Shown: positions 69 through 4,611 of the stretch, piece by piece | Position numbering within the stretch: the first letter of the stretch is position 1 | Layout of the letters: every line of letters begins with the position of its first letter | From: Clostridia bacterium | GTDB taxonomy: Bacteria; Bacillota_A; Clostridia; Oscillospirales; CAG-272 | Length of the DNA stretch: 6,095 nt | Direction: 5' to 3' | Assembly (NCBI GenBank): GCA_017547395.1 | Contig: JAFYPS010000095.1 | Coordinates: 1-6,095, forward strand | The notes under the pieces: model-generated | What the model saw: the letters and a program-made list of their open reading frames with translations, nothing else | What the model was told of the DNA's origin: nothing | Databases searched by the model: none | Program-made: the position numbers and the translations under genes

Positions 69-77
69 ATGTACATT

Positions 78-2849
78 ATGAACAAAAAACTGACATTATT
101 TTTGGCATCACTGCTCTGCCTTTTCTGCTTGCTTGCAGTAGTGGCAAGTGCTACGGAAACGGTAGTTGACAAGGTTTATATCTCCTCCGGCGGTAAAGGT
201 GAAAAAACAGGGCTTACCCCCGAGGATGCGGCGGCTACTATGGGTACTGCCGTAAAAAAACTTACTGCCGACGGCACCGTTTACATTGTTGATACGTTCA
301 GGCTTTACGGTCCGCGTGCTATGCTTACCGATATAGCGCACAGCATCACCTTTAAGCCGTATAACGAAAACAGCGTTTTCCACTTTGACGGTGAGTGGTA
401 TGTATCCACCAGCACAAGCAATAACACCTATACCTTCGATATTCCTATAACCGTGGATTCGGGCGAAACTCACAAAATTGTCGGCGGCTTCAACAACTTT
501 GTATTTACGGAAAAGTTTGTTGTCAACGGCGGCGGCGACCTTGAGTTTTACGGCGGCTTCCATCAGGATACGGAAGAGGGAAACAGTGTTACAAAAGAAA
601 AGAAAGGCATCGCCACTGCAGATTACTCCATCACCGTTAAAAACGGTAGGTTCTCAAAGTTCTACGGCGGCAATCTCCGCAATGCCATCGAAGACTACTA
701 CGGCTCTCTTGCAGGTCACGTTACAATCAATATAAGCGGCGGTACTTTTGGAAAGAGTGGCACCTACAACCTTGCCACCAACAACAAGAGTTTCGATGCA
801 TTCTCGGTTTCGGGTATGTCGGTGCTTGCAAACGGCGCCACCCTTAACATTTCGGGCGGTACCTTCAACACTCCCATCTATATTCAGGGCAGAACCGATA
901 CTATTTCCTCTAAGGCATCCGAAATATCTAAGACTGTTGCTTCAAACAAAAAGTATTACGCGATGGACGGCGACGTCAAGGTGAATATCACGGGCGGTAC
1001 CTTCAACGGCGGCGAGATAAGCGCGTACTATACTCACGCATCCTACACAACCCTTATACGCGGCAACTTTGACGTAAGTATTACGGGCGGTACCTTCAAA
1101 AAAGACACCGTAATTGATGCAACTCAGGTCGTACCCTACAAGAACTCGACCAAAAAAGCCACTATCACCTACCAGAACGTTACGAATATCACCCCAAAAC
1201 GCTTTGACGTTGTAAACGGCACGGCAAAAACCTACGACGAGCCTATCCGCGTAGTGTTTATCGGTGACTCTATCACCGAGGGCTATGCCCCTGCAGCTGC
1301 AGGCGTTGTACGCCTTACCGACGGATATCCCGCAAAGTTCCTTGCAAAGTGCGAAGCCGAGGGCAAAGAGGTAATCGTATCAAACTTCGGCATCGGTTCG
1401 GCAGGCTTTCTCCCGACGGCGGGCCGTTACTATATGAATATGCTCGCATATCCTATGGTTACCGAAGAGACCGAGCCTGACTACGTATTCTTTGCAATGG
1501 GTACAAACGATGCAAATGCAGTCGGCGGCACAAATGGCGCATATCAGCTTTTTGAAAAGAATTTTGAGGATATCGTTACCCTCATGGGTGAAAAGGACAC
1601 CGTTGACAAGGTGCTTATAACCAACGCTATCTACCGCAATAGCAATATGTCGGCTTCTCACCGTATGGCAGGCGCGCTCCACGCTATCCAGAAGCGCGTT
1701 GCAGACAAACTTCACGAAGAGGATGCAAGGTACAACTTTGTCGACCTTTACGGTCTTACTCTCCCTATGGCAAAGTACTATACCCTCTTTGCATACGGCA
1801 CCGATACCGACGGTGACAATCTCCATCCCACAAAAGAGGGACTTAAGGCAATGGGCGAATTCTGCTACGATGCAGCATTCAACGACGTATATGCTCCCCA
1901 AAACGACTATCACTTAACCGAAATCTATCTCTCCGACAAAGGCAGACCCTTTGGCGAAGGAACAAAAGACTCACCGATAAACAATATCCACTATGCGAAC
2001 GGTCTTGCGGCATACGGCAAAGAGGTTACGTTCTATATTGACGGCACGTTTACACTTCCCGACTCAACGAACGTTTTCCTCACCGAAAACCCGTCAAAGC
2101 TAAGTATCGTCGGCACCTCGGACGAGGCAAAGCTCGTTGTCAGGGGCAACACCTTAAAATGCGGAACGAACACAACCTTTGACAATATCATCCTTGAAAA
2201 CAACTATAGCGAGGGCACATATATTGTCGGATGCTACAATGATATTACGATAACCGACAGCGTTAAAACCACCTCCGTAACAGGAAAGGCATGGCACTTT
2301 ACTGCAGGCTATACGGTATATACCGTAAGCGAGCCGGTAACAACCGGTACGTTTGATACCGAAAAGTCGGCATCCTCGGATAAGGATTGCACCGTTATCG
2401 TAAACGGCGGCAGCTTTACAAGATTTGTTCTCGGTAATATTCGCTTAGACCCTGTGGCTCCTATCGGCTCGTACACAGGCGAAATGATTGCGCACATCGG
2501 CGACGGTGCTACTATAAGCACTACCGAAAAGTACGTCGGTATTGTCGGTCACAACTACAATCAGGGAAAAATCGCTGCAAACACCTCCTCGCACAGCCTG
2601 AAAGAGTATGCAACGTTCAGCACCGTTTCTTCTCCTATAGTAAAGGATGACGCCAAGAATACGGGCAGCGTTAAGTTTGCGAAGTCATATGATGCAAACT
2701 ATAGCGGAAAGCTTGACCTCGGTGACGTTCTGCTTGCCGTAAAGTATCACCTCAACGGTCTGCCAAGACTCGAGCAACCCGTGTACGGTATGGCAGAAGA
2801 GCTTACCCTTTTGGATGTTGTAAGCTTTATCGTCAATACTGTAAAATAA
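78..2849 (+). CDS. Secreted multidomain SGNH/GDSL hydrolase with flanking beta-repeat regions and C-terminal dockerin-like domain
   Basis: A 923-residue exported protein, probably an esterase acting on an extracellular glycan or other acylated polymer; the substrate is not evident. Residues 1-25 are a signal peptide (charged MNKK, hydrophobic core, ASA before the cut at about 25/26). Residues 33-390 are rich in beta strands, with SGGTF/TGGTF repeats near 220, 259, 305 and 336, suggesting a beta-helix-like fold. Residues 392-600 are an SGNH hydrolase with all blocks: GDSITEG with nucleophile Ser398, block II glycines 438/440, GTND with Asn477, and DNLHP with Asp580 and His583. Residues 613-865 resemble the first region again. 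Residues 872-923 resemble a type I dockerin: the first loop has Asp872, Asn874, Ser876, Asp880 and Asp883; the second loop has lost most calcium ligands. No LPxTG, SLH or lipobox is seen. It has its own promoter and no + strand neighbour in the window. The hydrolase fold is secure, the dockerin less so. Confidence 0.88.
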   Translation: MNKKLTLFLASLLCLFCLLAVVASATETVVDKVYISSGGKGEKTGLTPEDAAATMGTAVKKLTADGTVYIVDTFRLYGPRAMLTDIAHSITFKPYNENSVFHFDGEWYVSTSTSNNTYTFDIPITVDSGETHKIVGGFNNFVFTEKFVVNGGGDLEFYGGFHQDTEEGNSVTKEKKGIATADYSITVKNGRFSKFYGGNLRNAIEDYYGSLAGHVTINISGGTFGKSGTYNLATNNKSFDAFSVSGMSVLANGATLNISGGTFNTPIYIQGRTDTISSKASEISKTVASNKKYYAMDGDVKVNITGGTFNGGEISAYYTHASYTTLIRGNFDVSITGGTFKKDTVIDATQVVPYKNSTKKATITYQNVTNITPKRFDVVNGTAKTYDEPIRVVFIGDSITEGYAPAAAGVVRLTDGYPAKFLAKCEAEGKEVIVSNFGIGSAGFLPTAGRYYMNMLAYPMVTEETEPDYVFFAMGTNDANAVGGTNGAYQLFEKNFEDIVTLMGEKDTVDKVLITNAIYRNSNMSASHRMAGALHAIQKRVADKLHEEDARYNFVDLYGLTLPMAKYYTLFAYGTDTDGDNLHPTKEGLKAMGEFCYDAAFNDVYAPQNDYHLTEIYLSDKGRPFGEGTKDSPINNIHYANGLAAYGKEVTFYIDGTFTLPDSTNVFLTENPSKLSIVGTSDEAKLVVRGNTLKCGTNTTFDNIILENNYSEGTYIVGCYNDITITDSVKTTSVTGKAWHFTAGYTVYTVSEPVTTGTFDTEKSASSDKDCTVIVNGGSFTRFVLGNIRLDPVAPIGSYTGEMIAHIGDGATISTTEKYVGIVGHNYNQGKIAANTSSHSLKEYATFSTVSSPIVKDDAKNTGSVKFAKSYDANYSGKLDLGDVLLAVKYHLNGLPRLEQPVYGMAEELTLLDVVSFIVNTVK
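735..1099 (+). repeat. Coding repeats for the S/T-G-G-T-F motif in the hydrolase N-terminal region
   Basis: The 16-base string CGGGCGGTACCTTCAA occurs identically at 853-868, 991-1006 and 1084-1099. A diverged fourth copy is at 735-750 (AGCGGCGGTACTTTTG). Each encodes S/T-G-G-T-F preceded by N-I or S-I, at residues 220, 259, 305 and 336. The uneven spacing (39, 46 and 31 residues) fits turns of a repetitive beta structure rather than a strict tandem DNA repeat. Identical codons in three copies suggest recent internal duplication or gene conversion, or simply strong codon bias. Confidence 0.75.
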
Positions 2850-2852
2850 CGT

Positions 2853-3164
2853 AAAAAAGGACTGCAAAAGGCACCGCGCCGTAGTGTTGCGGTGCAGTGA
2901 TATGCACGCTTACGCGTGCGTTATATTCCCCTTTGGGGAGTGATATGTTCCTTCGGAACGCTATATGTTTTCTTCGAAAACGTTAATGAAAAAAACGACA
3001 CTTCAAAAGAAGTGTCGTTTTTCACTTTCACATTTGTCGCTCGCGACAAATATATCACGTTTGCGAAGCAAATATATCACTGCGCAGCAATATCACTTGC
3101 CCTACAAGGGCAAATATCACTGTACTCGACACTTTGGCGAGTACACTAACGCAGTCCTTTTTTT
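2853..3164. repeat. Mirror-symmetric multi-hairpin element with 13-bp terminal inverted repeats
   Basis: The ends are AAAAAAGGACTGC (2853-2865) and GCAGTCCTTTTTT (3151-3163), perfectly complementary. Inside are eleven hairpins. Left: 2871-2895, 2904-2919, 2927-2939, 2947-2959, 2967-2981. Apex: 2991-3022. Right: 3032-3051, 3059-3073, 3081-3089, 3097-3113, 3121-3145. Left spacers are GTGATAT, GTTATAT, GTGATAT, GCTATAT, GTTAATG (2897, 2920, 2940, 2960, 2982). Right spacers are ATATCAC four times (3052, 3074, 3090, 3114), plus a diverged CACTTTCAC at 3023. Spacers pair across the centre: two levels match 7/7, one 6/7, two 5/7. The arms differ in sequence, but each pairs with itself. The element begins three bases after the hydrolase stop codon and fills most of the gap between convergent genes. 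No protein is encoded. It could be a non-autonomous mobile element, a structured RNA or a bidirectional terminator; I cannot name a described family. Confidence 0.85.
2991..3022. terminator. Bidirectional intrinsic terminator at the apex of the multi-hairpin element
   Basis: AAAAACGACACTTC (2991-3004) and GAAGTGTCGTTTTT (3009-3022) form a perfect 14-bp stem with an AAAA loop (3005-3008). On either strand the stem ends in a run of five or more U, the layout of a Rho-independent terminator. It could end the hydrolase transcript from the left and read-through of the exporter-hisS transcript from the right. Confidence 0.75.
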
Positions 3165-3248
3165 GTTGTAAATTGAAGTTTATGAGAGTAGATTGAAGAC
3201 CACAAATCTGTAGGGGAGGCGTTCCGCCTCCCGTTTGTTACAACAAAA
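3161..3248. repeat. 11-bp inverted repeat bridging the two intergenic elements
   Basis: TTTTGTTGTAA (3161-3171) is the exact reverse complement of TTACAACAAAA (3238-3248). The left arm overlaps the T-run ending the multi-hairpin element; the right arm lies inside the second element. The enclosed stretch also holds ATTGAAG twice (3172-3178, 3192-3198). An 11-base perfect match 66 bases apart is unlikely by chance in so short a region, but the AT-rich sequence weakens the case. Confidence 0.55.
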
Positions 3249-3284
3249 GACGTTCTTTTCGGGAGGGGATATCCCTCCCCTGCA
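3209..3284. repeat. Short MITE-like palindromic element with alternative folds
   Basis: The ends TGTAGGGGAGG (3209-3219) and CCTCCCCTGCA (3274-3284) are inverted repeats with one mismatch. Fold one has two separate hairpins: GGGAGGCG/CGCCTCCC (3214-3221, 3225-3232, loop TTC) and GGGAGGG/CCCTCCC (3261-3267, 3273-3279). Fold two is nested: the ends pair, CCTCCCG (3227-3233) pairs with CGGGAGG (3260-3266), and AAAAGA (3245-3250) pairs with TCTTTT (3254-3259). It begins about ten bases past the hisS stop codon. No coding potential is seen. GGGGAGG/CCTCCCC palindromes of this kind seem familiar from gut Clostridia intergenic DNA, but I cannot cite a named family. Confidence 0.65.
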
Positions 3285-3294
3285 AAATCATCGC

Positions 3295-4611
3295 TTATCT
3301 TATTTTTTCAATCGCTTCGGCTACGGTGAGAAGCTCCTGCTCGCCCGTAGTCATATTTTTGAGCATTATCTTGCCGCACTCCGCCTCACTGTCACCGACA
3401 AGCGCAACGTAGGGAATCTGGCTTCGGTTTGCGAACTTCATCTTGGGCTTCATACCCTTGTCAAGACAGTAAACGTCAACGTTAAGTCCTGCCGCACGGA
3501 TCTCGGCCGCACTCCTCAGTACAAACTCAATATTATTCTTATCCATCGGAATAAAGAGCACGTCGGTAAGACTGCCGCTTTCGCTCTGAAGAATATTCTC
3601 ACTGCGAAGCTGTGAGAAAAGGCGTGTAAGACCTATTGAAATGCCGATACCGGGAAGACGATCCTCGGTATAGTAGCCTGTAAGGTTATCATATCTGCCG
3701 CCCGAGCAAACACTGCCGAGGCTCGGATAGTCAACCATCTTTGTCTCGTAAACAGTACCCGTATAATAGTCGAGTCCGCGCGCAATGGTGAGGTCAATCG
3801 CGATATTCTTTTCGGGAATACCGTACATATACGCGTAGGTAATAACCTTTTCAATCTCGTCTACACCGCACTTAAAGGTTTCGTTGTCGCAATCGACGTT
3901 TTTGAGTGCCGCGATAACCTCTGCATTGCTTCCGCCAATGCTGATAAATGCAAAAATCTTCTCTGCCGAGGCACCGTCAACTCCGAACTCGGAAAGCTCT
4001 GCCATAACCTTTTCCGCGCCGATTTTTTCAAGCTTGTCTATCGTGCGGAGAATGTCGCCGATTTTGTCGGCAAAGCCGAGGCGTGAGAAAAATCCGTTAA
4101 GCACCTTGCGGTTATTAAGACGGATAACGAAATCGCCGAAATTAAGCTTTGTAAACACGTTGTAGATAACCGCGGGCATTTCGGCATCGTACATAAGGTC
4201 AAGCTCTTCACTGCCTATAATGTCGATGTCGCACTGATAAAATTCGCGGAAACGTCCCTTCTGCGGGCGTTCGCCACGGTAAACCTTGCCCATCTGGTAA
4301 CGCTTGAACGGGAAAACGAGGTCGTTTTTGTGCTGAGCAACGTATCTTGCAAGCGGAACCGTAAGGTCAAAGCGCATAGAAAGGTCGGTATCACCCTTTG
4401 AAAAGCGGTAAATCTGCTTTTCGGTCTCTCCGCCCGCCTTTGCGAGAAGCACGTTTGAAAGCTCAAGCACGGGTGTGTCAAGCGGCAAAAAGCCAAAGCT
4501 CTCATAAGTCTCGCGGATAGTATCGTACATTCTGTTGAAAAGTATCTGGTCGGGTGGAAGAAGCTCCAAAGTGCCCTGCAACGTACGGGGCTCTGTCAAA
4601 TTGTTTGCCAT
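3295..4611 (-). CDS. hisS: Histidyl-tRNA synthetase
   Basis: A complete 438-residue class II aminoacyl-tRNA synthetase that charges tRNA-His with histidine in the cytoplasm, using ATP; the length is normal. Visible landmarks: motif 1 around 41-50 (Pro47); DLTVPLAR at 82-89; motif 2 from 104 to 134 with Arg112, Glu114 and REFYQCD (122-128); the histidine-binding RGLDYYTG at 278-285 with Arg278; SGGRYDNL at 303-310; and motif 3 GIGISIGLTRL at 321-331 with Arg330. Residues 349-438 are the anticodon-binding domain. The histidine motif and anticodon domain rule out the paralogue HisZ. REFYQCD and GLTRL resemble the eukaryote-like HisRS branch more than the E. coli form (RQFHQ, GLERL). The ATG at 4611 has AGGAG seven bases upstream. 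The gene follows an ABC exporter by 16 bases and is last in its unit. Confidence 0.96.
   Translation of the reverse strand: MANNLTEPRTLQGTLELLPPDQILFNRMYDTIRETYESFGFLPLDTPVLELSNVLLAKAGGETEKQIYRFSKGDTDLSMRFDLTVPLARYVAQHKNDLVFPFKRYQMGKVYRGERPQKGRFREFYQCDIDIIGSEELDLMYDAEMPAVIYNVFTKLNFGDFVIRLNNRKVLNGFFSRLGFADKIGDILRTIDKLEKIGAEKVMAELSEFGVDGASAEKIFAFISIGGSNAEVIAALKNVDCDNETFKCGVDEIEKVITYAYMYGIPEKNIAIDLTIARGLDYYTGTVYETKMVDYPSLGSVCSGGRYDNLTGYYTEDRLPGIGISIGLTRLFSQLRSENILQSESGSLTDVLFIPMDKNNIEFVLRSAAEIRAAGLNVDVYCLDKGMKPKMKFANRSQIPYVALVGDSEAECGKIMLKNMTTGEQELLTVAEAIEKIR

Follow-up and report, generated by a model that had tools for sequence, protein, structure and literature searches.

Inverted Gut-1-class hairpin arrays facing a probable shared terminator between convergent clostridial genes, and the case for a dispersed DNA hairpin repeat

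Gut-1 RNA (Rfam RF01706), in the portion of its description available, is reported from human-gut metagenomes only (Weinberg et al. 2010, PMC2864571). Its model consists of three hairpins joined by GUGAAAU-type linkers. No later account of such arrays was found in the literature searched, either by Gut-1 and RF01706 or by subject, and the available portion of PMC12306157 has no occurrence of Clostridi, Oscillospir, Ruminococc, Faecalibact or Firmicutes. Among dispersed bacterial repeats, REP sequences are described, in the accessible part of PMC3733652, as palindromes whose foot carries the tag GTAG or CGTC. For DNA itself, the available parts of PMC4686876 present GNA and GNNA mini-hairpins with G-C closing pairs as extraordinarily stable, and those of PMC4496689 report that in phage N4 a C:G closing pair, together with a loop starting in 5′G and ending in 3′A, is required for hairpin extrusion from supercoiled duplex.

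The window (the whole 6,095-nt stretch of Clostridia bacterium DNA that was analysed) contains an intergenic element whose two halves each match the Gut-1 model from end to end, above its gathering score and in opposite orientations (Table 1). The first-pass annotation knew of no named family with this design. The Gut-1 name does cover part of the element, and membership follows from both sequence and structure; another Rfam match, to MCS4, was ignored at 31.3 bits, below its cut-off of 56. We regard the element as a further architecture within the Gut-1 class. The class, for its part, may be less a simple family of RNAs than a dispersed hairpin repeat that acts at the level of DNA.

Much of the initial description of the element is accurate. 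Eleven hairpins are arranged 5-1-5, with each side made up of a head hairpin and four array hairpins. The heptamers between them are GTGATAT-like in the left half and ATATCAC-like in the right half. The 13-bp terminal repeats are exact complements, their midpoint (3008) falls inside the apex loop, and the flanking genes are indeed convergent. The five pairs of facing heptamers, or rungs, also match to the extent claimed: 7/7 for 2897-2903 with 3114-3120, 6/7 for 2920-2926 with 3090-3096, 7/7 for 2940-2946 with 3074-3080, and 5/7 both for 2960-2966 with 3052-3058 and for 2982-2988 with 3025-3031. More broadly, 2853-2887 and 3129-3163 are 71% complementary. Both the sequence and the fold of the central part give a hairpin followed by a T-run on either strand.

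Two neighbouring features were seen in passing. The C-terminus of the GDSL protein (2685-2849) contains DLGDVLLAVKYHLNG and LLDVVSFIVN, which look dockerin-like by eye; Pfam gave no dockerin domain there at the limit used. Beside the element, at 3200-3291, lies a second dispersed palindromic repeat of the GTAGGGGAGGCG...CCCTCCCCTGCA type. It accounts for 28 of the 31 matches that a DNA search returned in the related genome G013, and further copies occur in other related genomes.

Table 1. Features of the intergenic element and its neighbours (window coordinates).
Feature	Position	Strand	Basis or remark
Left neighbour, GDSL-type hydrolase ORF	69-2849	+	Element begins right after its stop
Left outer repeat AAAAAAGGACTGC	2853-2865		Pairs with 3151-3163; 13/13 pairs in best folds
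Left head hairpin, 7-bp stem, 11-nt loop	2871-2895	+	In best DNA fold, not in best RNA fold
Gut-1 RNA (RF01706) match, left array	2895-2971	+	61.1 bits, cut-off 50, E 1e-10
Left array heptamers inside Gut-1 match	2897-2903, 2920-2926, 2940-2946, 2960-2966	+	
Hairpin L1, loop C-TTAC-G (other strand C-GTAA-G)	2904-2919	+	Sequence
Hairpin L2, loop C-TTT-G, outside GNA rule	2927-2939	+	Sequence
Hairpin L3, loop C-TTC-G (other strand C-GAA-G)	2947-2959	+	Sequence
Hairpin L4, loop C-TTC-G (other strand C-GAA-G)	2967-2981	+	Open in best whole-region folds
Central A-tract/T-tract hairpin, bidirectional intrinsic terminator by form, loop 3005-3008	2989-3023		Sequence, folds
Hairpin R1, loop outside GNA rule	3032-3051	-	Sequence
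Gut-1 RNA (RF01706) match, right array	3047-3122	-	53.3 bits, cut-off 50, E 9.8e-9
Right array heptamers inside Gut-1 match	3052-3058, 3074-3080, 3090-3096, 3114-3120	-	
Hairpin R2, + strand loop C-GAA-G (has GCGAAGC)	3059-3073	-	Open in best whole-region folds
Hairpin R3, + strand loop C-GCA-G, short stem	3081-3089	-	Sequence
Hairpin R4, loop outside GNA rule	3097-3113	-	Sequence
Right head hairpin, 8-bp stem	3121-3145	-	In best DNA fold, not in best RNA fold
Right outer repeat GCAGTCCTTTTTT	3151-3163		Sequence; best folds
Right neighbour, histidyl-tRNA synthetase	3295-4611	-	3′ end faces element

The reading to which we give roughly even chances is that the window holds two inverted Gut-1-class arrays, one beyond each convergent gene, facing a shared bidirectional terminator, and that such arrays are terminator-associated, dispersed DNA hairpin repeats. 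The likeliest history is that a one-sided array was gained at either gene end and that the two have a single terminator in common. Inward-facing arrays around a central terminator are also seen at the loci L488 and L490; at three other loci flagged for this layout, the flags read as array hairpins and not as terminators. The family to which these arrays belong is dispersed, has covarying arms, varies in copy number and place, lies close to terminator-like hairpins more often than gene ends do and includes one subtype positioned after tRNA and tmRNA ends. That its working form is DNA we infer from the loops and mismatches considered below.

Gut-1 matches are widespread among relatives of the host. 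Judged by histidyl-tRNA synthetase (85% identity), the nearest relative is a metagenome bin of the Oscillospiraceae. Matches occur in 5 of the 6 genomes of the nearest genus (4 over the cut-off), with 0 to 39 per genome, in 69 of 118 genomes of the family (67 over the cut-off) and in 36 of 291 genomes of the class (33 over the cut-off). Fourteen control genomes had none in the family and class searches; in other searches, at a laxer limit, E. coli gave a match below the cut-off. Loci of relatives typically carry several hairpins per array with a constant heptamer between them, so that the repeating unit is the heptamer GTGAWAT, or a variant of it, plus a short near-perfect palindrome. Arrays are either one-sided or two-sided, the latter consisting of an array and then an inverted array. 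In 40 loci of the genomes G013 and G012, picked as Gut-1 matches, 39 arrays were delimited by counting GTGAWAT and GTTATAT motifs only, and 6 of the 40 loci gave none. Among these arrays, 20 are one-sided and 19 have motifs in both orientations, where two-sided means at least one motif per orientation; for 13 of the 19 the count is at least two per orientation.

Some arrays depart further from the Gut-1 model. Two-sided ATGAAGC/GCTTCAT arrays occur at L097:1617-1780, L083:347-527 and L090:534-711; of nine units of this type, eight close their loops with C..G and seven carry TN(N)C loops. Such arrays seem to escape Rfam, since the L097 array is not among the Gut-1 matches. At L416:1420-2380, a tRNA-Trp gene is followed by a tandem series in which elements with GTGAAAT heptamers alternate with elements with ATGATAT heptamers, and some of the repeated linkers end in CCA or CCG.

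The claim that structure rather than sequence is kept in the hairpin arms is well supported by covariation among relatives. We aligned 28 two-sided elements, mostly of the tRNA-docked type, out of 40 extracted. Near-duplicates more than 0.93 alike were dropped, and the 12 left out were opposite-end readings, composites, elements with an insert or an extra hairpin, or elements with no typical right side. The window itself is not part of this alignment, and the covariation concerns hairpins between constant GUGAAAU-type linkers in these relatives. RNAalifold predicts 28 pairs, 23 of them changed on both sides. In the right-hand hairpins, 165 cells are changed on both sides against 51.1 after shuffling, and 91.7% of cells are paired against 51.3%, with 17 of 17 pairs showing both-side changes (shuffles 16.1). 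The first hairpin has 52 such cells against 16.1, with 94.3% of cells paired against 69.8% and 5 pairs changed against 4.6. Counts of changed pairs are close to the shuffles throughout; what sets the data apart is the number of cells, the percentage paired and the score. As the control ignores kinship and the sequences are related, the shuffle figures are not probabilities.

A long stem from the first heptamer and hairpin arm to the centre of the element is also kept, with 63 both-side cells against 20.6, 99.0% of cells paired against 80.6% and 6 pairs changed against 5.6. It shares the left arm of the first hairpin; two mutually exclusive pairings are therefore both maintained. In the alignment (columns 4-27 and 100-110) this single arm covaries with two partners, in a manner that looks like a structural switch. 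As the arm is often 5 nt long, a search for its 6-mers at the centre recovered only 46 of 113.

The arrays are associated with particular genomic positions. A terminator-like hairpin lies within 75 nt of 25 of the 39 arrays. At these loci the figure is 8 of 88 for gene 3′ ends and 54 of 780 for randomly placed windows; 14 of the 39 arrays have none inside that distance. A start no more than 70 nt from a tRNA or tmRNA 3′ end is seen in 9 of the 19 two-sided arrays and in 0 of the 20 one-sided arrays. At 64 distinct terminators ahead of arrays, selected by pattern, the junction is commonly CCA followed by GAAAA...TTTTC, and in the tRNA subtype the array sits beyond the terminator. A preference for convergent genes was considered and rejected (7 convergent and 2 divergent one-sided arrays against 19 and 25 controls; p 0.076, not significant), which weakens a role in the relief of torsion.

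Duplication of the tRNA 3′ tail was likewise rejected as a general scar: 26 of 29 distinct docked tRNAs have no downstream repeat of at least 11 nt. Direct repeats of tRNA 3′ tails do adjoin arrays at L146:1020-1300, L436:990-1500 and L480:3200-4100, about 116 to 388 nt downstream, and comprise 22 nt of tRNA-Trp, 21 and 19 nt of tRNA-Gly and tRNA-Cys, and 17 nt of tRNA-Gly. These repeats resemble attachment-site duplications.

Whether the hairpins act as DNA or as RNA is the central question, and the loops are informative in this respect. Units were read on the GTGAWAT strand in 172 loci, giving 432 non-redundant units; since most loci were found with the Rfam model, the loop counts carry some selection, and the units are phylogenetically non-independent. 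Loops are closed by C..G in 413 of the 432 and by G..C in 12. The commonest forms on this strand are C-TNC-G (209 units), C-TNNC-G (81) and C-TNT-G (46). Read on the ATWTCAC strand, 290 of the 432 have C-GNA-G or C-GNNA-G loops. Among hairpins with stems of at least 6 pairs, such loops occur in 238 of 439 within arrays and in 102 of 1005 outside them at these loci. In some units only a single G-C pair adjoins the loop. In arrays with ATGA-type heptamers, which are less like the Rfam model although some match it, 46 of 52 units close with C..G and 29 of 52 have TN(N)C loops. As a counterpoint to the DNA reading, the loop rule is kept by only five of the eight array hairpins in the window (L1, L3, L4, R2 and R3).

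Stem mismatches point in the same direction as the family loops. Stems are perfect in 327 of 394 units. With the foot pair excluded, 2314 pairs include 12 G.T and 11 A.C mismatches; the 62 tRNA acceptor stems at these loci have 26 G.T and 2 A.C (Fisher p 0.0012 versus arrays). At the foot, 330 of 394 units have T.G and 64 have T-A; in most units, therefore, the foot can pair as a wobble when the GTGAWAT strand folds but is mismatched on the opposite strand, which tells against the main reading. Where two mismatches stand side by side, 29 of 30 cases read TC/CT on the GTGAWAT strand, equivalent to tandem G.A on the ATWTCAC strand, and this motif makes up most of the 69 C.T/T.C stem mismatches. 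It looks from these patterns as if the ATWTCAC strand is the folded one and its stems have no wobble tolerance. Tandem G.A pairs and GNA-type loops can be stable in RNA too, and they therefore name the strand more surely than the molecule. Taken together, loops and mismatches favour DNA hairpins, and none of them proves the point.

The strongest rival is that Gut-1 is a genuine structured RNA, forming small RNAs or mRNA 3′ ends whose hairpins protect or regulate the RNA. We consider this unlikely, though with a sizeable share of the probability. Rfam classes Gut-1 as 'Gene; sRNA', and the strong covariation of the arms counts in its favour. In the window, transcription from either gene would run from the stop codon through one array before reaching the terminator, a placing that suits an mRNA 3′ end and leaves room for an RNA role there. 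The CTNCGG form that RNA UNCG loops need is fitted by 97 of the 209 TNC units (46 of 116 with TTC, 41 of 53 with TGC), and part of the loop set may follow this rule. The other 112 break it, and the rule does not explain the set as a whole. RNA UUCG tetraloops were also tried as the loop rule and partly rejected: GCTTCGC occurs 47 times and CCTTCGG 46 times, but CCTGCGG occurs 41 times against 11 for GCTGCGC. The near-equal G.T and A.C counts, with no excess of wobble on either strand, differ from those of the tRNA stems; one-sided arrays have no fixed orientation relative to the gene on their 5′ side (13 with it, 7 against); and in the tRNA subtype the array comes after the terminator, all of which speaks against an RNA. 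The first-pass annotation had offered three guesses. Two of them fit the evidence, namely a DNA element whose hairpins extrude and a repeat that is dispersed and probably non-autonomous; the mismatch statistics speak against the third, a structured RNA.

Dispersal is evident from several comparisons. Near-identical copies include a pair on two contigs of the genome G101 (98.5% over 197 nt) and a pair within the locus L454 (97.6% over 211 nt). One G101 copy matches seven others in that genome at 92% or more over at least 140 nt, and the copies have different flanks at the end read (L472-L477, L479). The array cluster is absent from all 19 hisS loci of relatives, in about 16 genomes, and the copy number and place of arrays differ among related genomes. 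Near-identical copies at differing places, with none at the relatives' hisS loci, indicate that the arrays disperse. Pattern scans of viral contigs gave, among the matches listed, at least 15 hairpin chains, of which at least six loci read as real arrays (L190, L287, L291, L299, L349 and L365). The tRNA-type element has one partial match in phage records and none among plasmids, and the window element has no match among phages.

Such dispersal invites comparison with REPIN or BIME elements moved by a Y1 (HUH) REP-associated transposase, and tagged short palindromes, inverted pairs and clusters dispersed between genes are, in the accessible part of the REP literature (PMC3733652), the layout of REP and BIME. 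That the arrays are of this kind is nevertheless improbable. The transposase domain Y1_Tnp (PF01797) is found in 5 of 13 draft genomes. Two of these carry 3 and 6 Gut-1 matches (G001 and G009), but three have none (G002, G005 and G006), and the domain gave no match in the array-rich G007, G008, G012 and G013, with 19, 26, 33 and 39 Gut-1 matches, where absence is not absolute as these are drafts. The tag is moreover a heptamer, and not GTAG or CGTC. On the lack of a Y1 match in the four array-rich genomes, we reject a REPIN/RAYT system.

The first-pass annotation saw the element as a ladder of five four-way junctions, with left spacers paired to right spacers level by level; as a functional unit, this would be a set of stacked junctions. 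Folding does distinguish the element from dinucleotide shuffles, the check proposed with that claim: with RNA parameters it folds at -138.3 kcal/mol (z -11.7) and with DNA parameters at -88.6 (z -12.1), and 0 of 100 shuffles did as well in either case. Hairpins alone, with spans up to 60 nt, supply -102.5 of the -138.3 (RNA) and -68.1 of the -88.6 (DNA). The best RNA and DNA folds retain all 13 pairs of the outer stem and the outermost rung (7/7), the other four rungs are absent in register, and hairpins L4 and R2 are opened. The ladder as drawn scores -115.6 (RNA) and -73.8 (DNA), 22.7 and 14.8 kcal/mol above the best folds. By these energy models, the long-range folding gain in the window is not the drawn ladder.

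Evidence from the family bears on the ladder both ways. Heptamers agree between sides in 72 of 74 two-sided elements across six types (GTGAAAT, ATGAAAT, GTGATAT, ATGAAGC, ATGATAT and GTGAAGT), compared with a mean of 42 and a maximum of 54 in 10,000 shuffles; the window element lies outside this set, its sides being too far apart for the script. This agreement suits the pairing of rungs, and equally suits one repeat unit used both ways round. Rung variation leans slightly towards pairing (9 both-side cells against 3.8), to a degree that none of 500 shuffles matched in cells, percentage or score, and once the outer stem is in place the rungs contribute 17.6 kcal/mol with DNA parameters (1.4 with RNA). 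Rungs are nonetheless near-invariant, with both-side changes in 3 of 28 pairs against 2.1 in shuffles and 88.0% of cells paired against 87.4%, and the three imperfect rungs of the window are uncompensated. In the tRNA subtype the best-supported long stem is the one to the element centre, and 20 of the 39 arrays have no second side with which to pair. A functional ladder is hence hardly probable. As a conserved unit we reject it, on rung covariation, best folds, drawn-ladder energy and one-sided arrays, and as the preferred fold it fails with one rung in five; the ladder would be one possible single-strand fold of an inverted pair.

The weakest alternative, that the element is an elaborate bidirectional terminator whose remaining hairpins are chance or decay, takes account of a central hairpin and outer stem that are both terminator-like on both strands, but the fold energy, the two Gut-1 matches and the 432 like units elsewhere make it extremely improbable, and the family evidence refutes it as a full account.

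We return to the reading of inverted DNA hairpin arrays around a shared terminator, and suggest how such arrays might work. Most of the family's palindromes would fold, on the ATWTCAC strand, as mini-hairpins with C-GNA-G or C-GNNA-G loops, and the AT-rich heptamers between them may help the duplex to open. Hairpins extruded beside terminators could then take up negative supercoils or serve as binding sites for a host protein, roles that have been suggested for BIME and REP palindromes. The family would spread as a non-autonomous repeat copied by an enzyme, although no mobilising enzyme came to light, which tells against this part of the reading.

A bolder proposal, which we advance tentatively and with more doubt than confidence, is that Gut-1 is not an RNA family at all. 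The catalogued model would instead capture one part of a widespread and probably mobile class of natural DNA mini-hairpin arrays. These would be tandem palindromes in which one strand has d(C-GNA-G) or d(C-GNNA-G) loops and tandem G.A pairs; they would be designed for extrusion from supercoiled chromosomal DNA, would dock in Clostridia at terminators and at tRNA CCA ends, and would be spread by an enzyme. If so, a catalogued RNA family is really a family of DNA structures, and clostridial chromosomes harbour dozens of sites with loops that obey the rules of supercoil-driven extrusion. Natural arrays of this kind would offer a direct test of the old question whether cruciform-like hairpins form and work in the chromosomes of bacteria, and would imply an agent that copies arrays to terminators and tRNA ends.

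Both halves of the window element align over the full length of the Gut-1 model as catalogued (RF01706) and exceed its cut-off. The model has three hairpins, whereas the elements described here are longer, one- or two-sided and dispersed in many genomes, use six heptamer types, often lie near terminators or tRNA ends, and have no RNA-type wobble in their stems. With REP, BIME and REPIN elements they share tagged short palindromes, inverted pairs, intergenic positions and many copies per genome. They differ in their GTGAWAT-type heptamer tag, which is neither GTAG nor CGTC, in having several distinct hairpins with variable arms in each array, and in the lack of a Y1 match in the four array-rich genomes. 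The early promoters of phage N4 resemble them in that C:G closure with a 5′G/3′A loop is the commonest form here (290 of 432 units in the family, five of eight hairpins in the window), extrusion being a prediction for our arrays; the difference is that these are arrays of many hairpins in bacterial intergenic repeats, known from sequence. Finally, d(GCGAAGC) and the other GNA and GNNA mini-hairpins belong to the same loop class with G-C closing pairs. In the available part of PMC4686876 they are designed parts of oligonucleotides, whereas here they are natural and occur in arrays.
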